Virus record (IMG/VR): IMGVR_UViG_3300032285_002576
Location: 1 to 20,867 of that record
DNA: 20,867 bases
Strand: one strand, 5' to 3'
DNA from: a virus
A program made the translations under genes and the position numbers. Each line of letters opens with the position of its first letter. Within the stretch, counting starts at the first letter, position 1. Below the pieces are notes generated by a model that was given only the letters and a program-made list of their open reading frames with translations, did no database searches and was not told the DNA's origin. Shown one piece after another: positions 2,870 through 17,704 of the stretch.

Positions 2870-3432
2870 TGAATATAAAAGAACCAGAAATTATTAAAAC
2901 AGTTCTACCACCAGAAACGTTAAAAAAGCTACAACAGCACGCTATGAACATGTGGTCAAATTCAGGCACCTTTGATAAGGCTTTTGGCCGGCATCAGTGG
3001 GCCAACACGCCCGTATTAAGCGAGGTGCACGAGATGCTTACAGACCTTGCTAAAGAACATTTTGAATCTGAAACGCTTAAGCCTTCTTGGTGCCTAATGG
3101 GTATCTATGAAACATCAGAAGCAAAACTTTGGAAGCATAAAGACGATAATGCATGTACCTATCATATAAATTTTTGCGTATTTCAAAAAACTCCATGGGA
3201 ACTTTGGGTAGAGGGAAAGCCATACCTTTTAGAAGAAAACGATGCCCTTATGACCTACGGCAATGATCAGGAACATTGGAGAGAAGAATTTCCGGATCCA
3301 GAAAAAAATTTAGTTTGCAATGTATTCTTCTTTTATTGTGAGCCAGATCATTGGTACTTTACTAAAGGCCCTACATATCTTGAGGTAATTAGAGGACACG
3401 TAACAGAAGAAGATTGGGCTGCAAAACAATGA
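2869..3432 (+). CDS. 2-oxoglutarate/Fe(II)-dependent oxygenase-like protein
   Basis: The ATG at 2869 overlaps the upstream stop (TAATG) and begins the conserved region (MNIKEPEII), giving 187 residues; an ATG at 2794 would add 25 residues that only read through the zinc-ribbon gene. The protein has the facial triad of the jelly-roll dioxygenases: His90-x-Asp92 (WKHKDD) and a distal His136 in EHWREE, with a strand-rich core between (CTYHINFCVFQKTPWELWVE) and the typical acidic turn before the distal His (LLEENDALMTYG). Phages often carry such prolyl-4-hydroxylase-like enzymes. The substrate is unknown; within this cassette it might hydroxylate a protein or sugar before or after sulfation. It ends in an ATGA overlap with the APS kinase gene. 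Confidence 0.75.
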   Translation: MNIKEPEIIKTVLPPETLKKLQQHAMNMWSNSGTFDKAFGRHQWANTPVLSEVHEMLTDLAKEHFESETLKPSWCLMGIYETSEAKLWKHKDDNACTYHINFCVFQKTPWELWVEGKPYLLEENDALMTYGNDQEHWREEFPDPEKNLVCNVFFFYCEPDHWYFTKGPTYLEVIRGHVTEEDWAAKQ

Positions 3433-4181
3433 TTATTCAGATTATTGGTTTGCCTGGATCTGGTAAAACAACCTTAGCTACTGAGCTTGCTAGTCGTATA
3501 AACGCGGTTCACCTTAATGCAGACTATGTTAGATCAACAGTTAACTCTGATCTTGGTTTTACACCTGAAGATCGCAAAGAACATGCCCGCCGTATGGGAG
3601 AGATGGCCCGCCTATTGTCTGGACAGGGCTTAGATGTAGTAGTCGACTTTATATGCCCAACACAAACAACTCGTGAGGCATTTGGTAAGGCGGATATCCT
3701 GGTCTGGATGGATACCATTAAAGAAGGTCGTTTTGAAGATACCAATAAGATGTGGGAAACTCCTACCATCTTTGACTACAAGTTTGAGACCTTTGACGCA
3801 AATGCCCACGTAAATAACATTATCTTTACATCCAATCTTCATGATTGGAAAGCACCTACAACTTTGATGCTAGGGCGCTACCAACCATGGCACGAAGGAC
3901 ATCATGCCCTATACCATGAGGCCAAAGAACGTACCCAACAGGTAATGTTGGGTGTTCGTAATACGCATGGAACTAGCGAGAAAGATCCACTTAGCTTTGA
4001 TGAGGTTAAGGGGTATATTTCAGCAGATCCAGCTATGTCTGGGGCTATGGTCGTAAAGATGCCTAACATTACTAACATTGTCTATGGTAGAGATGTTGGA
4101 TACAAGATTGAGCAAGTAGATCTGGGGGCAGATATACATGCGATATCCGCTACTCAGAAGCGTAAGGAAATGGGCCTATGA
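3429..4181 (+). CDS. Adenylylsulfate (APS) kinase fused to HxGH nucleotidyltransferase domain
   Basis: The start is the ATG at 3429 (ATGA overlap), which begins at the first strand of the P-loop domain; an ATG at 3414 would add five residues. Residues 1 to about 115 look like APS kinase (CysC): Walker A GLPGSGKT (7-14), NADYVR (30-35) in place of DGDxxR, NSDLGFTPEDR (39-49), then HARRMGEMARLL and ICPTQTTREAF (75-85). This enzyme phosphorylates APS to PAPS. Residues about 143-250 are a separate Rossmann-type nucleotidyltransferase: GRYQPWHEGH (149-158) with the HxGH signature, and ISATQKR (239-245), the second family motif, as in NMN or cytidylyltransferases. It lacks the QxRNPxHxxH motif of ATP sulfurylase, so it is probably not the APS-forming enzyme. 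It supplies the likely PAPS donor for the sulfotransferase upstream. Confidence 0.8.
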   Translation: MIIQIIGLPGSGKTTLATELASRINAVHLNADYVRSTVNSDLGFTPEDRKEHARRMGEMARLLSGQGLDVVVDFICPTQTTREAFGKADILVWMDTIKEGRFEDTNKMWETPTIFDYKFETFDANAHVNNIIFTSNLHDWKAPTTLMLGRYQPWHEGHHALYHEAKERTQQVMLGVRNTHGTSEKDPLSFDEVKGYISADPAMSGAMVVKMPNITNIVYGRDVGYKIEQVDLGADIHAISATQKRKEMGL

Positions 4182-8158: not shown

Positions 8159-9739
8159 ATGCCTACTTATAGTAGACCAGGCGTCTTTATCCAAGAAGTA
8201 GAACTTCCACAAACGATTGATCTTGCAGATGATACCAATGCTATTGGTGCGTTCGTAGGTTCTTTAGCTAAGGGAACCACAGCAGCACCAGTATTGGTAC
8301 GCTCTTGGTCACAGTTTGTAAAGCTTTTTGGATCACTAGAAGACGCGTACCCAACAACATGGGCAGCATATAACTTCTTTGCTAATGGCGGCCGTGACCT
8401 TTATGTCAAGCGCGTTGTTGGCTCAGGATATGCTACTGCTTCAGTAATTCTAACAGACTCATCTTCAAGCCACCTAAACACTATCTCAGTTGCAGCTGCT
8501 AACCCAGGAATCTGGGGAAACAGCCTAGCTGTTCAGGTTAATGCTGCGGGCGTATCAACACGTTTTGGTATCTCAGTTTACGGAGCTCCAACAATTGCTG
8601 GTAACTCTACCTCAAACTTGCTTGAAACCTATACAGATCTAAGCATGGATTCAACAGATCCACGTTATTTTGTTTCTGTAATTAATACCCAGTCTTCATT
8701 TATTTTTGTTGCTAACCAGAACTCTGCGTCTGTTGCGCCAACAAATATGCCTACAATAGGCTCTACACTATATGCTCTAGGTTCAACAACCGCTGGAGCA
8801 AATGGTGCAACACCAACTCGTAGCAATTACGTTACTGCTTTGACTACTTTTGATTCAATTCAGAGCCCGCTTGTATTCAACAACCCAGATGCAGCTTACT
8901 ACTACAACGTATCAACAGGTTCAGGTACAGACCGTACCAATGCTGTAGGTATTAACGCAGACTTGGTAGCTTACTGCCAAAGTCGTGGAGATGCTTTTGC
9001 GGTTCTAGATACCCCTCAAGGATTAGCAGTTTCTGAAGCCCAGACTTTTGTTTCAGATACGGTAGCCGGTTTTGCTGCTTCATCTGATGGTGGAGTTGCA
9101 GCGTTTTACTATCCTTGGACACTTATTCCAGATGCTTTGAAAGCAACACCTGGTTCTACACGCCTTCAAGCTCCAGGAGCAGCGGTTGTAGGTCAGTACC
9201 TTGCAACAGACGCGTCTCGTGGTGTATTTAAGGCTCCAGCAGGATTGCAAAATCAAATCGCATTAGCAGTTTCTACAGACAAGCAGTTTACTAACTCTGA
9301 ACTTGACACTGTTAACTCAGCTACATACCCAATCAACGCAATTCGTAATGTACCTGGTGCAGGAATTGTTATCATGGGTGCACGTACTCTTAAAAATACA
9401 GCAGGAGCACGCTACATTAACGTACGTCGTTCTCTTACCTATATTGAAAAAGAAATTAAGGATCGCACATCATTTGCTATCTTTGAAAATAATGATTCTA
9501 ATCTATGGAATCAAATCAGCATTGCAATTGGAACATTTTTAGGTTCTTATTGGCAAGCAGGAGGTTTGCGTGGAAACAAACCTACTGATGCTTACTACGT
9601 AAAGTGTAACTCAACTAACAATTCTATGGCAGATATTATGTCTGGAAAAGTTAATATCGAAGTTGGCGTTGCTCTTGAGTATCCAGCCGAATTTGTAATC
9701 ATCAAGATCGGCCAACTTACAGGAAACGCTAGTATCTAA
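8159..9739 (+). CDS. Phage tail sheath protein
   Basis: The 526-residue product begins with PTYSRPGVFIQEVELP, the classical sheath start (Y.xPGVY..E), followed by IGAFVGSLAKGTTAAPVLVRSWSQFVKLFG. The C-terminal domain contains the conserved INVRRSLTYIEKEIKDRTSFAIFENND and WQAGGLRG segments and ends in the conserved strand region EYPAEFVIIKIGQ. Length is usual for contractile-tail sheaths (about 450-650). An AAGGAG at 8145-8150 lies eight bases before the ATG. The sheath surrounds the tube and contracts to drive it through the host envelope. The protein is the basis for calling this a myovirus. Confidence 0.97.
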   Translation: MPTYSRPGVFIQEVELPQTIDLADDTNAIGAFVGSLAKGTTAAPVLVRSWSQFVKLFGSLEDAYPTTWAAYNFFANGGRDLYVKRVVGSGYATASVILTDSSSSHLNTISVAAANPGIWGNSLAVQVNAAGVSTRFGISVYGAPTIAGNSTSNLLETYTDLSMDSTDPRYFVSVINTQSSFIFVANQNSASVAPTNMPTIGSTLYALGSTTAGANGATPTRSNYVTALTTFDSIQSPLVFNNPDAAYYYNVSTGSGTDRTNAVGINADLVAYCQSRGDAFAVLDTPQGLAVSEAQTFVSDTVAGFAASSDGGVAAFYYPWTLIPDALKATPGSTRLQAPGAAVVGQYLATDASRGVFKAPAGLQNQIALAVSTDKQFTNSELDTVNSATYPINAIRNVPGAGIVIMGARTLKNTAGARYINVRRSLTYIEKEIKDRTSFAIFENNDSNLWNQISIAIGTFLGSYWQAGGLRGNKPTDAYYVKCNSTNNSMADIMSGKVNIEVGVALEYPAEFVIIKIGQLTGNASI

Positions 9740-9752
9740 GGAGATATGAATA

Positions 9753-10382
9753 ATGGCACTATCAATCGATAATATTAAAAGAGGTTTAGCTACGGATCCA
9801 ATCCGTACGTTTAAGTTTCTTGTAAAATTTACACCAAATACTCCTAGCGACTCCACTACTTGGGAAACCACTAAGTGGAATACTATGGGATTTGTATCTC
9901 TTTCAGGATTAAGCGTCTCAACAGAGCCTATTGCTTACCGTGAAGGCGGATATAACACTAATGTCCATCAGATTCCAGGACAATCTTCGTTTACCCCAAT
10001 CACCCTTTCACATGGGTTGATGCTAGGTCAAACAGCAAACCAGCAGTGGATGAAGCGCTTATTTTCAGTTCTATCAACTGGAGCGGCTTCAGGCGTAGGG
10101 GCAGACTTCCGCTGTACTTTGGATATTGCGGTATTAAGCCACCCAAACCCAAAGGGCGCAGCCTCAAAGGCTACTAACACTGTTTCAGCGGATAACGATG
10201 ATAGCCAGCACGTCTCTATGCGCTTTAGAGTGTATAATGCTTGGATTGCTAACCTTGGCTATAGCAGCCTAGACGCAGGACAAAGCACACTTATGGTTGA
10301 AGAAATGACAATTGTTCATGAGGGCTTTGATGTCATCATGGCAAATGATTATGGAACAACTGCCGGAACATTCACAGCTTAA
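9753..10382 (+). CDS. Tail tube protein (T4 gp19-like)
   Basis: The 209-residue protein has the tail tube pattern: DPIRTFKFLVKFTP near the N-terminus, VSLSGLSVSTEPIAYREGG, then TPITLSHGLMLGQTANQQWMKRLFS and a final strand VEEMTIVHEGFDV. Size matches T4 gp19-type tubes (about 150-220). It is preceded by AAGGAG at 9738-9743; an out-of-frame ATG at 9746 gives only a few codons and is ignored. Tube and sheath genes are adjacent as in nearly all contractile-tail phages. The tube polymerises inside the sheath on the tape measure. Confidence 0.95.
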   Translation: MALSIDNIKRGLATDPIRTFKFLVKFTPNTPSDSTTWETTKWNTMGFVSLSGLSVSTEPIAYREGGYNTNVHQIPGQSSFTPITLSHGLMLGQTANQQWMKRLFSVLSTGAASGVGADFRCTLDIAVLSHPNPKGAASKATNTVSADNDDSQHVSMRFRVYNAWIANLGYSSLDAGQSTLMVEEMTIVHEGFDVIMANDYGTTAGTFTA

Positions 10383-10404: not shown

Positions 10405-11223
10405 ATGGAAACAGAACAGGTCGTAAAAGCGTCAGACTCACCTGACGTCGCTAATCAACTCGTAGAAAAAGCTTTATCAGATTCAGAGAAGACTACCGTT
10501 GCACCCGCTCCGGTAGCTCTTCCAGCTGACAGTGAAGTTCTCTTGCCGGGCGGTATTAATGACCCATTTGAGGGTTTAATTAAAACCGCAACGGTAAGAG
10601 AACTTACTGGAGCTGACGAGGAGGCTATCGCAAGGATTGCAGATCCTGGCAAGTCTTTGCTAGCAATTCTTGAGCGAGCTGTAGTAACTGTTGGAGATAA
10701 ACCCGCTAATAAGGAATCTCTAGACATGCTATTGGCTGGAGACCGTGAGATGCTGCTCCTAGCAATTCGTAAGATAACCTTTGGAGAAGAAACACAGGTT
10801 GGTCCAGGACTATGCCCCACCTGCTCTACAGAACAGACTTTTACAATCAATCTTACTGAAGATGTAGAAGTCAAGGAGCTAGACGAAAATGATCGACACT
10901 TTACCTTGAAGTGTAAGGTGGGGGTTGTAGACGTTTCGTTACCAAGCGGGGCTGTACAAAAAGCACTAGTAAATGCTACAAATAAGAATTCCGCTGAGCT
11001 AGACACAATCCTTCTAAACGGCTGTATTACTAGCATAAACGGCATCCCAGTCATGAATCCCCAGGCGATTAAAGACCTCGGAATCAAGGATCGTAGGGAT
11101 ATACTTAAGGCTATAACAGACCGCAACCCTGGTCCACAACTCGGTGAAATCGCAAAGACTTGCAGTTCTTGCGGCTCGGAGGTACCGCTTCCGCTTACAT
11201 TAGCGGAATTGTTTCAAGAGTGA
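10405..11223 (+). CDS. Tail assembly chaperone (T4 gp26-like zinc-finger protein), short form
   Basis: The 272-residue protein lies between tube and tape measure, the position of tail assembly chaperones. A disordered N-terminus (to about 45) precedes a folded part with GDREMLLLAIRKITFGEE (112-129) and four Cys: C137/C140 (CPTC) and C253/C256 (CSSC), which could form one zinc site. This layout resembles T4 gp26-type baseplate-hub or chaperone proteins. It ends in LAELFQE with TGA at 11221-11223. In the +1 frame an ORF without a start codon continues from the same place (see next feature), as in chaperones that use frameshifting to make a long form. No strong ribosome binding site is seen before the ATG. 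Confidence 0.7.
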   Translation: METEQVVKASDSPDVANQLVEKALSDSEKTTVAPAPVALPADSEVLLPGGINDPFEGLIKTATVRELTGADEEAIARIADPGKSLLAILERAVVTVGDKPANKESLDMLLAGDREMLLLAIRKITFGEETQVGPGLCPTCSTEQTFTINLTEDVEVKELDENDRHFTLKCKVGVVDVSLPSGAVQKALVNATNKNSAELDTILLNGCITSINGIPVMNPQAIKDLGIKDRRDILKAITDRNPGPQLGEIAKTCSSCGSEVPLPLTLAELFQE

Positions 11224-11350
11224 GTTAAGTTACGAACTCTTAATCGAGAGCTATGAGCTGCTATCAAAAGCCTACCCAGGCTGGACATTGCAGGACATAA
11301 GATCGTTCTCTTTCCGTGAGAGAACAATGTGGATACTACGTATTAGGTAA
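11216..11350 (+). CDS. Frameshift extension of the tail assembly chaperone (+1 frame)
   Basis: In the frame one base ahead of the upstream gene, the sequence is open from 11204 to a TAA at 11348-11350, but has no ATG, GTG or TTG before the middle of the ORF. It reads KSELSYELLIESYELLSKAY, then PGWTLQDIRSFSFRERTMWILRIR, a well-formed helical domain like the second part of phage tail assembly chaperones. A codon TTT (11212-11214) followed by C allows the P-site tRNA-Phe to slip from UUU to UUC, a known +1-prone arrangement; the long form would be 314 residues. A 7-bp stem (TTCCGCT/AGCGGAA, 11189-11208) lies just upstream. The tape measure starts 15 bases downstream. A sequencing error is the main alternative. 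Confidence 0.65.
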   Translation, partial: KSELSYELLIESYELLSKAYPGWTLQDIRSFSFRERTMWILRIR

Positions 11351-11364
11351 GGCGGTGATTAACT

Positions 11365-14247
11365 ATGGCAGGTCAAAATCTCATCTCCCCAGATGATGAA
11401 GAGGCAATGTTCCGAAGTGTGGAACGAGAAGTTGCCCGCATCAAAAAAGATATGGGGGATGTTGAAAAAAGCTCTGAGGGCGTAAAGAAAAACTTTACAG
11501 ACGCCGCTAATGCCATGGGCGGAAATCGGCCTGGCGGAGGAAAACTTGGCCTAGGCACAATGCCTTTCCGAAGTGCACTGGGGCAATTTAGCAACAAAGA
11601 ACTCGCAGTAGGCGGAGCTATGGTTGCCGGATCTATCGGCATGAGCATGGCTCCAAATACCATGTCAGCGGTCGCTCAAAGGATGTATGCGGACTCCGTA
11701 GCGGGTCTTAGTGGTATGAAGGCAAGCCAGGTTATTGGCCAGTCTAATCGCCTTGTACAGGGCGCTACAAGCGCCGGTGGACCAACTGCTGCTGCCGCTA
11801 ACCTGTTTTATCAGGGCGGTTATTCTGCAGGATCGTTGAGCTCTAAGAGCATCATGTCAAGCCTCGGCGGGCTCAGCGCAATGACCGGCGGCACTAATGA
11901 ACAGGTAGCCTCTAGCCTTGCTGGAATTAACGGTATGGGCTTCTTAAGAGCTGGCGTAAGAATTCGTGATAATCAAGGAAATCTTCTTCCTATAAACCAG
12001 ATTGTTAACTCTGTTTATAACATGCTTTACGGTGGAAGAAGCATTACTCCCGAGCAAGCGGCAATGCTATTGAACCCTAATTCTAAGGGTTATCAAACAT
12101 TGATGATTGTTTGTGGTGGGGATACAAACCTCATGCAAACAATCTCTATGGCAGTCATTGCACGTGCTAAAAAGGGCAGCGCGTTAAGTAAAAAAGATTT
12201 GGGAAGCTCTAATCAAGCCTTAAATATCATGGGTGTAGAAGGCAACTCCCCAATTAGATCTAACTTTAATTTTGCAAAAGGCGAGAACATGGCTCTCGCA
12301 TCAACCCAAGCAGGTTTAGTAAACGGATATAACGTTTCTTTAAACACAGTTGGTGGCCTTAATCGTGCATTTGCTGATTTAGCTTCCGCTGTAGCACCAG
12401 TTACTTACGGCCTAATGAGCCTAAAAGGTACACTACAGACTTTCCCACAAGCTGGAAATATGGGTGGAACACTTTCCGGTATAGGAAGCATGGCAACAGG
12501 ATTTGCTGGTCAAGCTATGAATGCCGCAATTATGGGTAGAGTGATGGGTGTCGGTAAATTTGCAGCCGGAGGAAGTACAGCTGAATCTATGGCAGCCGGT
12601 CAATCAAGACTTGCAGCTCTACGAGGAAGTACAGGGCTTAAACTTGGCGGAACTGCACTGATAGCTACACTACTTCAAGCTGGATTAAACGCAACTTATG
12701 GTAATAAGCATCAAGGCAGCAATATAGTTAAATATGGAAACATGGCTGCATCTATGGGAACAGGCGCTGCTTCTGGAGCTGCAATTGGAACTATGATTGC
12801 TCCAGGAATTGGAACTGGAATTGGTGCGGTTCTTGGAACAGGTCTTGGACTTATTCAGTCATTGATGGCTGGCGGCCAAGGAGGTAGTAGCGATGGCTCC
12901 GGAGGTAACGGTAATACTGGGTCTCCTAGCGGTTCTTCTCAAGGATTAGCTTTGGCTGTTCCTGCAGGAACCGCAATTAGCTCTCCTTACGGTAACCGTA
13001 AAGGTGGGGAAGGCGTTAAGCCTGGATTCCACCATGGAATTGACTATAAAACTCCAGTAGGAACAAATATCACTGCTATGGCAGATGGTATTGTAAGCTA
13101 CGTTGGAAACGATAAAGCGGGTTATGGAAACTACGTAACTATCGATCACGGCGCTGTCTCTACTCGTTACGCTCACTTAAGTAAAGTATTAGTTCGTAAG
13201 GGTCAAAGAGTAAAGCGTGGAGAAGTAATTGGTAAGTCTGGTGGTAAAAAGGGTGCTGCAGGAGCGGGTAACTCTACTGGACCACACCTACACAATGAAG
13301 TACTTCAAAACGGAAAAGCGGTAAACCCCGCTAGCTTCTTTGGAAAAGCTGGAAATTTCTTGACCAACTTATTTAAAGATGGCATTAATATGGCAAAGAA
13401 TGCTGTTGGTTGGCTTACAGGTGGAAATACTAAGAACCCAGTCACCAATCCATTCCGTAATGTACAGAATTCAAAACCAGGTGTAGACCCATCGGGATTA
13501 AGCAGCGCAAGTTTAAGTTCTATATTAAACGGTGACCTAAACCACGGAAGGTCTGTGGGATATAAGGACATCGAAAAATGGCTTAATAGTCATCCGTCTA
13601 AAAGCATGAACCTAAATGGGGACGCCACATCTGTTATAAATAATGCATACAATGCAGGAAAAGATGAAAGCCCCGGACGCATGGCTGGCGGAAGTAGAGC
13701 CGGGATGATGCGTATCCTTCAGCAGGCAGGCTTTAAGGGAAAAGCCTTAGAAACTGCATTTGCTGTTGCTTTAGCCGAATCTGGCGGTCGTATGGATCGT
13801 CCAGGTGATTTAAATCTTCAAAGCAAAAAATGGGGGCCAAGTATTGGTATGTTCCAGATTCGATCCCTAAAAGACTGGAAATCATACAATAATCCTAATA
13901 GAGATGCCTCAAGGCTTTCAGACGCTAATTATAATGCTCAAGCGGCTTATAACATTAGCCACGGAGGAACAAACTGGAAACCTTGGTCTACCTACAATAG
14001 CGGAGCATTCCTAAAGTACATTGACGACGCACAGCGTACCGAGTCTGGTATGGGTGGTTCTAGTGGCATGTCTTCTTTGTCCACTAACCCCGCAAGAGAT
14101 GCGCACCCAAATAAAAACGTACATATAAAATTAGATATGCACGTTAATATTGCAAAGTCAGGTGTAGCAGAGGCTGAGCAAATGTTCCGTCATTTAGAAA
14201 AGAAATTAGAACACGCCCTACGCAAGCATGAGGTAACTCTTTACTAA
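11365..14247 (+). CDS. Tape measure protein with M23 peptidase and lytic-transglycosylase-like domains
   Basis: The 960-residue protein is the longest in the window and follows the chaperone, as tape measures do. The N-terminal half (to about 465) is helical, Gly/Ala/Met-rich. Residues about 472-502 are a hydrophobic Gly-zipper-like stretch (AIGTMIAPGIGTGIGAVLG), followed by a Gly/Ser linker. Residues about 535-655 are an M23-type metallopeptidase: FHHGID (His556, Asp560) and HLH (641-643, His643) are the zinc ligands. Residues about 775-895 resemble a transglycosylase/lysozyme fold with a likely catalytic Glu805 (AVALAESGG) and GPSIGMFQIRS. These domains cut host peptidoglycan during entry. 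A stop-ATG overlap (TAATG) leads to the next gene. Confidence 0.92.
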   Translation: MAGQNLISPDDEEAMFRSVEREVARIKKDMGDVEKSSEGVKKNFTDAANAMGGNRPGGGKLGLGTMPFRSALGQFSNKELAVGGAMVAGSIGMSMAPNTMSAVAQRMYADSVAGLSGMKASQVIGQSNRLVQGATSAGGPTAAAANLFYQGGYSAGSLSSKSIMSSLGGLSAMTGGTNEQVASSLAGINGMGFLRAGVRIRDNQGNLLPINQIVNSVYNMLYGGRSITPEQAAMLLNPNSKGYQTLMIVCGGDTNLMQTISMAVIARAKKGSALSKKDLGSSNQALNIMGVEGNSPIRSNFNFAKGENMALASTQAGLVNGYNVSLNTVGGLNRAFADLASAVAPVTYGLMSLKGTLQTFPQAGNMGGTLSGIGSMATGFAGQAMNAAIMGRVMGVGKFAAGGSTAESMAAGQSRLAALRGSTGLKLGGTALIATLLQAGLNATYGNKHQGSNIVKYGNMAASMGTGAASGAAIGTMIAPGIGTGIGAVLGTGLGLIQSLMAGGQGGSSDGSGGNGNTGSPSGSSQGLALAVPAGTAISSPYGNRKGGEGVKPGFHHGIDYKTPVGTNITAMADGIVSYVGNDKAGYGNYVTIDHGAVSTRYAHLSKVLVRKGQRVKRGEVIGKSGGKKGAAGAGNSTGPHLHNEVLQNGKAVNPASFFGKAGNFLTNLFKDGINMAKNAVGWLTGGNTKNPVTNPFRNVQNSKPGVDPSGLSSASLSSILNGDLNHGRSVGYKDIEKWLNSHPSKSMNLNGDATSVINNAYNAGKDESPGRMAGGSRAGMMRILQQAGFKGKALETAFAVALAESGGRMDRPGDLNLQSKKWGPSIGMFQIRSLKDWKSYNNPNRDASRLSDANYNAQAAYNISHGGTNWKPWSTYNSGAFLKYIDDAQRTESGMGGSSGMSSLSTNPARDAHPNKNVHIKLDMHVNIAKSGVAEAEQMFRHLEKKLEHALRKHEVTLY

Positions 14248-15977: not shown

Positions 15978-16261
15978 TGGCTATTGAAAGAGTATCTAGA
16001 TATAATGACGGGACTTTAGCTCAAGTCTCCTATGAACATTCGGGGACATATCAAATTACTGTGTACAGAAAATGGCCTGAAAAAATGACCGTTAAGTACG
16101 TAGAACATACCTGGAAATATGGAGATACTTTAGCAAACCTTGCTAATACCTACTTGGGTGGGTCTAAATACTGGTGGGAAATTATGGACATTAATCCAGA
16201 AATAATTGACCCATTTAGCATAGATCCTGGAACTGTGATTAGGATTCCAAATGGATTATAG
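15977..16261 (+). CDS. LysM-domain baseplate protein (gp53/tail protein X-like)
   Basis: The 94-residue protein contains one LysM domain at its C-terminus: VEHTWKYGDTLANLANTYLG, then KYWWEIMDINPEIIDPFSIDPGTVIRIPNG. Short LysM proteins such as P2 gpX and T4 gp53 link the tube and baseplate. The start is coupled to the upstream gene (TAATG). The stop at 16259-16261 lies inside the next gene, which starts at 16251. Confidence 0.88.
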   Translation: MAIERVSRYNDGTLAQVSYEHSGTYQITVYRKWPEKMTVKYVEHTWKYGDTLANLANTYLGGSKYWWEIMDINPEIIDPFSIDPGTVIRIPNGL

Positions 16262-17111
16262 AAATTCCGTACGCCCCTTTATTTGGGGGTCTAACGTATA
16301 CGGGGCTAGCTTTTCTGTAAGTTTTTCAAAAACACCCGGTTTAGAGTTAATTCCGATTATGCTTGAAATTGATCAAAAACAGGCTGCTCATGATTTTGCG
16401 TCTATCTATTTTAAGGGAAAACCCTATAAACTAGAGTCTCAAGTTCAGTATAATGATCCTGTAGAAATTACCTATAGATCAGATAAAACAACCTATAAAT
16501 TCCATGGTTACGTCCACGCTATTAGGCAGATTACTGGTACCACTGGAACTACAGAAACAATTGTAGAGTGCGTATCAGCTTCTAGCATTTTAAAAGAAAG
16601 TGCTCAAAAAGTTTATACAAAGACTACTGCGGATCAAGTTATATCTCAAGTTTGCGCAAGTTTTGGACTTTCTGCAGTTACTCAAAGAGACCCTAGAGTA
16701 AGAAATGCCATTGTACACAGCGGCCAAAGTTATTGGCAACTATTTCGTTCGTTAGCCCTACAGACCGGTAATGCTTTAAGAGCGGAAAATACCACTATTA
16801 CTTTTTGCTCAAAAGATAAGATAACTAACTCTAAAAAAACTAGTGCACCTTATTTTGTATTAGCGGATAACGCTAATGGTGGAGTAGTTACTCGTGAACT
16901 CAGAAACTTAGGAAGTATAGTAGAGTTTAACCCTATTGTCTCCAACGCTTCTCCAGAAACAGGGTCAAATGTAGACAGAGTAGTAACGGGCAGAGCTACC
17001 TCTAGTAGCAATCCTAAAGGCAAGGCAATCAAGACTACACACACAAATGCAAAGTCTTCTGCTTCGGCAAAAGGTGCTGTAAAGCCTAGTAAGGATTACT
17101 TTAAAAAATGA
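16251..17111 (+). CDS. Baseplate hub protein, N-terminal part (gpD/gp27-like)
   Basis: The 286-residue protein has the hub pattern: an N-terminal beta domain (RPFIWGSNVYGASFSVSFSKTPG), VEITYRSDKTTYKFHGYVHAI, TETIVECVSASSILKESAQKVYTKTTADQVISQVCASFG and the QSYWQLFRSLALQTGNALRAEN segment typical of gpD/XkdQ/gp27-like proteins. The usual single hub protein is longer than this; the following gene (198 residues) looks like its C-terminal half, so the hub appears to be split in two. The C-terminus here is Lys/Ser-rich and probably disordered. The start lies 11 bases before the end of the LysM gene; the stop overlaps the next ATG (ATGA at 17108). Confidence 0.8.
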   Translation: MDYRNSVRPFIWGSNVYGASFSVSFSKTPGLELIPIMLEIDQKQAAHDFASIYFKGKPYKLESQVQYNDPVEITYRSDKTTYKFHGYVHAIRQITGTTGTTETIVECVSASSILKESAQKVYTKTTADQVISQVCASFGLSAVTQRDPRVRNAIVHSGQSYWQLFRSLALQTGNALRAENTTITFCSKDKITNSKKTSAPYFVLADNANGGVVTRELRNLGSIVEFNPIVSNASPETGSNVDRVVTGRATSSSNPKGKAIKTTHTNAKSSASAKGAVKPSKDYFKK

Positions 17112-17704
17112 CTCAAAGTTTTTCTAAAAATACAAAAGCAGTATATAAAAAACATTTTCCTTTTGAGGTAGCAACAAACTCAAATGATGCAAAATTAATT
17201 GCTGAGGCTCAAGGAAAAAATCATAGGTACCAATATATGGCGCATTGTGTCCTTGCAGGAAATGCGGATATTAGGCCATATGATCCTATATACTTAGATA
17301 ATCTTCCTAATGGAATGTCCGGTTATTGGACAGTAATAAGTGTTACCCACAGATTTGGTGGAAAATCAGGTTATTACATGTTAGACGTGCTTGTCGGTAC
17401 GGACATAATTGGTGAAACAAACCCAAATGCGTCTACTGCTGTTGCGTATAGAGACGTAGACTCTGAGCTTAATAACCAAAGCTTAGTTACTAATGACTCT
17501 ATGTTGCAAGAATATAGTGTGTCACCTAATGACTCTAGCCTTCCGTCTGCGGGAACAGATGTTCGTGGACCAAAGGTAACTCCAAAAGCATCGTTTATTT
17601 CAAACATAACTACAAACCCTTACGCTGTATACCCACCTACTGCCGCAACACCAAAAAGAACCGCACAGTGGAAAGCATCTAAAGGAAACAAGGTGGTAGA
17701 GTGA
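17108..17704 (+). CDS. Baseplate hub protein, C-terminal part
   Basis: The 198-residue protein starts within the stop of the N-terminal hub gene. Its first 100 residues (DAKLIAEAQGKNHRYQYMAHCVLAGNADIRPYDPIYLDNLP, then GYWTVISVTHRFGGKSGYYMLDVLVGTD) match the second beta-barrel of hub proteins of the gpD/gp27 kind. The following 90 residues are a low-complexity Pro/Asn/Ser-rich tail. The two hub halves must associate, or be read as separate chains of one ring. It overlaps the spike gene (GTGA at 17701). Confidence 0.75.
   Translation: MTQSFSKNTKAVYKKHFPFEVATNSNDAKLIAEAQGKNHRYQYMAHCVLAGNADIRPYDPIYLDNLPNGMSGYWTVISVTHRFGGKSGYYMLDVLVGTDIIGETNPNASTAVAYRDVDSELNNQSLVTNDSMLQEYSVSPNDSSLPSAGTDVRGPKVTPKASFISNITTNPYAVYPPTAATPKRTAQWKASKGNKVVE

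Follow-up and report, generated by a model that had tools for sequence, protein, structure and literature searches.

A very probable +1 frameshift at a UUU_Y site, preceded by a conserved hairpin, in a phage tail assembly chaperone gene

The chaperone gene and its two reading frames

We analysed a 20,867-nucleotide stretch of viral DNA (IMG/VR record IMGVR_UViG_3300032285_002576, hereafter the window), in which a tail assembly chaperone gene sits between the genes for the major tail tube and the tape measure protein, a gene order that is the same in relatives. The zero frame of this gene ends with TTG TTT CAA GAG TGA. The +1 frame opens at 11204, after a TAG at 11201-11203, stays open through 11347 and closes at a TAA (11348-11350); the ATG of the tape measure gene, at 11365, follows 15 bases later. 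The preliminary description had placed the chaperone at 10405-11223, ending in TGA, with a start-less +1 reading frame running to 11350, and these coordinates were confirmed. The features considered here are as follows.

8159-9739: sheath gene, 5' of the tube gene
9753-10382, plus strand: tail tube protein, gp19-like (PF06841, E 6e-22), the 5' neighbour of the chaperone gene
10405-11223, plus strand: tail assembly chaperone, short form, 272 aa (PF12322 T4_baseplate, PHROG 150)
11178-11183, plus strand: Shine-Dalgarno-like (SD-like) GGAGGT, of putative function, assessed by the position of its GAGG in relatives
11189-11208, plus strand: 7-bp hairpin TTCCGCT / AGCGGAA with a 6-nt loop, assessed by stability against synonymous shuffles and by covariation
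11212-11215, plus strand: candidate slip site UUU_C, where tRNA-Phe would re-pair from UUU to UUC in the +1 frame, assessed by in-frame TTTY in relatives
11216-11350, plus strand: C-terminal T domain in the +1 frame, 44 codons plus TAA (KSELSYELLIESYELLSKAYPGWTLQDIRSFSFRERTMWILRIR), conserved with protein-like substitutions
11221-11223, plus strand: zero-frame stop TGA, whose offset from TTT varies among relatives
11365-14247, plus strand: tape measure protein with M23 peptidase and lysozyme-like domains, the 3' neighbour

The chaperone gene matched PF12322 with 42.6 bits, above the Pfam gathering cut-off of 24.5. This is the family of T4 gp26 and gp51, which thus belong to the same protein family as the window chaperone; in T4, gp26 consists of PF12322 alone and gp51 of PF12322 plus the gp51 C-terminal domain, a natural in-frame fusion. 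The short form also carries zinc-ribbon-like CxxC...CxxC pairs. An AlphaFold2 model of the short form reached a pLDDT of 88.9 with 65 aligned relatives and of 36 from single-sequence input. The top PDB match of the model, covering its residues 163-245, was the HK97 tail assembly chaperone 2OB9 (Z 7.2, rmsd 3.2, 82 of 104 residues; next match Z 3.5), and comparing the short-form model with VIA-align yielded no further convincing fold. The sequence of T4 gp51 had no match among PDB chains. The predicted fold lends moderate support, with a Z under 8, yet it agrees with the gene's position.

Frameshifts in chaperone genes are textbook knowledge, with T4 long listed as an exception (PMC5009743). 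The lambda pair gpG/gpGT is alike in lying between tube and tape measure and in comprising, besides the short form, a long form extended by frameshifting into a C-terminal T domain (Xu et al. 2004, as described in PMC5009743). Position, overlapping reading frame and fold together support the assignment of the window gene as a G/GT-type tail assembly chaperone. If TTTC at 11212-11215 is read as one Phe codon, the product is a 314-residue fusion.

Other parts of the window also held noteworthy reading frames. The hub (gpD-like) region is present as two ORFs with an ATGA overlap (16251-17111 and 17108-17704); at this place, Streptomyces relatives have a single annotated gene of about 1.2 kb, and the window possibly contains a split gene. 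A single ORF at 3414-4181 encodes an APS-kinase-like domain and, after it, a region weakly resembling a cytidylyltransferase, and a sulfotransferase-like ORF just under the Pfam cut-off (1831-2634) shares the window with the tail genes. The protein encoded at 1126-1818 contains long proline-threonine repeats, specified by 6/18-bp tandem repeats.

The +1 frame and the slip site across relatives

We scanned viral contigs, bacterial genomes and annotated phages and obtained 288 analysable loci, many of them near-identical, in which the frame of the T domain was called with an HMM of +1 tails. A +1 T domain was present in 273 loci, of which 237 were unique when judged over 400 nt; 14 loci had the domain in the -1 frame, and one locus was truncated. 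Twelve of the 14 were found by the HMM; the other two, from Atu_ph07 and PA5oct, have a -1 ORF that it missed. The +1 set includes the Streptomyces phages BRock, LuckySocke, GiJojo and pSt2308, as well as SP-15, LIS04, Mel-JY01, Flavobacterium phage immuto, GXN1 and the 484-kb record LR756508. The same +1 arrangement was observed in actinobacterial contigs (Saccharothrix, Actinomadura, Streptomyces, Nonomuraea and Terracoccus) and in one contig that carries a Bacillota MAG label (together L209-L220). Counts over these relatives are not independent trials owing to shared kinship, though the clades span about 30% identity. The preliminary description had called a +1 shift with an upstream stem less usual: -1 shifts are indeed commoner in chaperones at large, but within the sampled family +1 is the common state.

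Coding in the +1 frame, which the preliminary description had proposed to check in relatives, is kept. The proportions of substitutions at the three codon positions were 0.26/0.12/0.62 in the +1 tail versus 0.23/0.10/0.67 in the zero frame, a protein-like pattern indicating that the +1 ORF evolves as a protein. All 237 unique +1 loci contained, inside the overlap of the two frames, an in-frame TTT with C or T as the next base, such that the tRNA on UUU could pair with UUC or UUU in the +1 frame. This bears out the proposal of UUU-C at 11212-11215 as a +1 slip site yielding a 314-residue long form. In the clade of the window, the slip codon was TTT in 55/55 loci, and TTTY occurred elsewhere in the chaperone gene at 0.19 in-frame sites per gene. 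In loci above 60% GC, the slip codon was TTT in 41/41, and Phe elsewhere in the gene was encoded by TTT and TTC in a ratio of 8 to 261. The recurrence of the +1 ORF, the TTT and the upstream hairpin in relatives is far beyond chance.

The overlaps between zero and +1 frames mostly spanned 3-7 codons. The segment from slip site to stop read TTT TAA (5 loci), TTT TGA (3), TTT CGC TAA (7), TTT CAA GAG TGA (9) or TTT CGA GAA TGA (12) in variants of the window clade. Since the zero-frame stop moves relative to TTT, the shift is pinned to UUU, and the stop directly after TTT in some loci indicates that it does not occur later. The site is not of the -1 X_XXY_YYZ type: the T domain lies in +1, and the -1 frame of the window closes 5 nt beyond the point where the zero-frame stop begins. 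We rejected -2 slippage, in which tRNA-Phe would land on UGU, AUU or UCU and pair poorly. A tRNA scan of the window found none, and thus no phage tRNA-Phe there.

Alternatively, the T domain could be a separate small protein with its own start, made by termination-reinitiation. Such a route is plausible in the T4-like phages KVP40 and S-SM2, whose gp51-like ORF starts with an ATG of its own close to the gp26 stop, and two further loci (L107 and L112) are perhaps likewise arranged. The +1 ORF of the window, however, offers no ATG, GTG or TTG before the TTG at 11288, in the middle of the T domain, and 88 of the 237 unique loci have no start codon within 45 nt on either side of the stop. Reinitiation would also leave the invariant TTT, the moving stop and the hairpin unexplained, and we consider it very improbable.

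Many relatives among L225-L304 read TTT TTT TGG CCT at the slip site, and on such a run of seven T the polymerase could slip in addition to the ribosome. Transcriptional slippage as the source of the frame change is conceivable in many TGG-clade loci, but no more than three consecutive T occur at the slip site of the window. The other non-ribosomal source would be an indel from sequencing or assembly, and here the recurrence of the +1 arrangement in independent isolates (BRock, LuckySocke, GiJojo, pSt2308, SP-15 and LIS04) and in hundreds of metagenomic and other contigs argues against an artefact. Slippage or an indel therefore strikes us as more improbable still than reinitiation. With the two-frame arrangement itself confirmed, the comparison supports its interpretation as a ribosomal frameshift: one gene very probably gives rise to a 272-residue short and a 314-residue long chaperone through a +1 slip at UUU 11212-11214.

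The upstream hairpin and the SD-like site

The hairpin arms lie at 11189-11195 and 11202-11208, and in the window the 3' end of the stem stands 3 nt, the E-site codon, before the slip TTT. Across 55 non-redundant loci of the window clade, the 36 nt before TTT had a mean folding energy of -11.2 kcal/mol versus -4.4 kcal/mol for synonymous shuffles, and 82% of these loci were individually below 0.05. Mean z values in three other +1 clades ranged from -1.3 to -1.7. One sequence from each of 50 clusters under 50% identity gave a mean z of -1.22 (Fisher p 1.5e-11), and control windows of the same genes a mean z of -0.03. With clustering taken to 40% identity, the deepest level (17 clusters), the signal was weaker (mean z -0.67, Fisher p 0.014). 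The stem also contains two synonymous positions that covary: Pro CCG occurs with Ala GCG in 41/41 loci, and CCA with GCA or GCT in 14/14, the latter pairing building the stem in another register. We regard this covariation as supportive rather than as proof, because the codon types follow phylogeny. The 7-bp hairpin three bases upstream, noted in the preliminary description, is thus borne out, and the comparison with synonymous shuffles and control windows indicates that it is conserved beyond codon needs. The weak GAGTT/AACTC stem noted downstream is also present in the window, but most relatives lack it and it is not conserved; we rejected it as an element. Downstream sequence of the window clade was in general weakly structured (z -1.2, relative to plain shuffles only). 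An Rfam search returned no match.

It is conceivable that the frameshift is real and the hairpin non-stimulatory, either arising from codon choice or acting as a weak intrinsic terminator. A terminator scan did flag the hairpin, yet about 1.1 chance hits are expected in the region and no T-run follows it; in the Streptomyces clade, the stems are followed by CATCCTGTTTC. A codon-choice origin is at odds with a stem that exceeds synonymous shuffles where control windows do not, and with the lack of excess structure at the same place in 8 of 9 sampled -1 relatives. We consider a non-stimulatory hairpin unlikely, albeit less so than the two alternatives to ribosomal shifting discussed above.

Upstream of the hairpin, the distance from the start of GAGG to TTT is exactly 33 nt in 55/55 loci of the window clade and in 22/23 of the Streptomyces-phage clade. 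Its Glu codon GAG is invariant in 55/55 window-clade loci; of 88 conserved positions, only three are fully codon-invariant, and this GAG and the slip TTT are two of them. Compared with synonymous shuffles, anti-SD pairing was in clear excess in the window clade and in partial excess in the TGG clade; in the high-GC clades, where GAGG is expected anyway, no excess was detected. Another near codon-invariant stretch in the window clade lies about 78 nt 5' of the slip site, at 11134-11139, where CCA CAA (Pro-Gln) is kept in 55/55 (CCA) and 98% (CAA) of loci.

The +1 site of prfB (RF2) resembles the window in P-site re-pairing on a pyrimidine run (CUU_U), a slow A site and an internal SD. It differs in where the SD lies: the prfB SD is 3 nt away from its slip codon, whereas the window has no internal SD at that distance, its SD-like site being 28 nt off (GAGG begins at 33 nt) with the hairpin between. 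Looping out of the hairpin would bring this site to 8 nt from TTT. The GAGG may have a role in shifting. The influenza A PA-X site, UCC_UUU_CGU, shares its UUU_CGN form and re-pairing logic with many relatives (UUU_CGC, UUU_CGA), but acts on a eukaryotic ribosome in an unrelated gene (PMC3498833).

Shift direction and a proposed mechanism

Lambda and most other chaperones shift -1, unlike the window, which has +1 at UUU_Y with upstream structure; the likely +1 chaperone case named in a review is the myovirus HSTV-2 (PMC5009743). Vladimirov, Gautam and Davidson (2022, Virology 566:9) identified T4-like chaperone genes, and some T4-like phages have separate short and long chaperone genes (both as cited in PMC12846349 and PMC10885494). 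Within the family, T4 uses two genes, KVP40, S-SM2, Atu_ph07 and PA5oct have a -1 ORF with T_TTT_TTC, and the window clade is +1. KVP40, S-SM2, Atu_ph07, PA5oct, RAS14 and L117 carry T_TTT_TTC or T_TTT_TTT before the zero-frame stop, with the T domain in -1, and the HMM built on +1 tails also matches the gp51-like ORFs of KVP40 and S-SM2. In 8 of 9 sampled -1 relatives, folding of the upstream segment did not exceed that of synonymous shuffles, and downstream hairpins are predicted in most of these relatives (the shuffle comparison covered upstream segments). A tree of 71 proteins, with several long branches and a small -1 sample, implied at least 4 changes between +1 and -1. Genome contigs of Lysobacter, Lysobacteraceae and Ramlibacter (L221-L224) have the T domain in -1 and are sister to the actinobacterial +1 group.

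In synthetic constructs, an upstream hairpin raises +1 and lowers -1 shifting on both 70S and 80S ribosomes (PMC3639245, PMC6321510). The window is alike in that a stable hairpin abuts the E site, and differs in that its hairpin is a conserved natural element rather than part of an engineered construct. On 70S ribosomes, hairpin-driven +1 shifting occurred only without RF2, that is, at a hungry stop codon (PMC6321510), unlike the slip sites of the relatives, where the A site often holds CAA or CGN.

Coding in two frames, the site of the shift and the conservation of the hairpin are shown by the comparison, whereas the slippage event, its rate and the stimulatory roles of hairpin and SD-like site belong to a proposed mechanism. 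In it, most ribosomes would stop at TGA 11221 and release the 272-residue short form. With tRNA-Phe on UUU in the P site and a slowly read codon or a stop in the A site, some would move one base forward, and tRNA-Phe would re-pair on UUC and lead into the T domain and the 314-residue long form. The hairpin, melted by the passing ribosome, would refold against its trailing edge and favour forward slippage, and the SD-like GAGG may help through pausing. The presumed partners of the two forms are the tape measure and the tube.

A broader proposition joins two claims: that a large family of myovirus chaperones has conserved a natural three-part +1 cassette (SD-like GAGG, refolding E-site-abutting hairpin and UUU_Y), and that the direction of shifting at the homologous site changed several times, the upstream hairpin going with +1 and the downstream one with -1, as the synthetic flanking-duplex model predicts. 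We see the chances for and against the two holding together as evenly balanced.

Frameshifted chaperones, and their occurrence in T4-like phages (published in 2022, as cited above), were already known. A +1 UUU_Y site with a conserved upstream hairpin in a large group is undescribed in the literature that we searched, although the 2022 paper may list some of the groups. These loci would offer natural, conserved candidates for upstream-hairpin-stimulated +1 shifting, a mechanism that we found tested only in engineered RNAs, within a gene family where homologous sites appear to have switched between +1 and -1. Some of the +1 sites lie in actinobacterial contigs or Streptomyces phages, and the prfB +1 shift is absent from Actinomycetota (PMC12421855), so that the hosts would lack that motif. 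The long chaperone is also missed by annotation: in Streptomyces phages, its +1 part is annotated as a separate hypothetical protein or left out.
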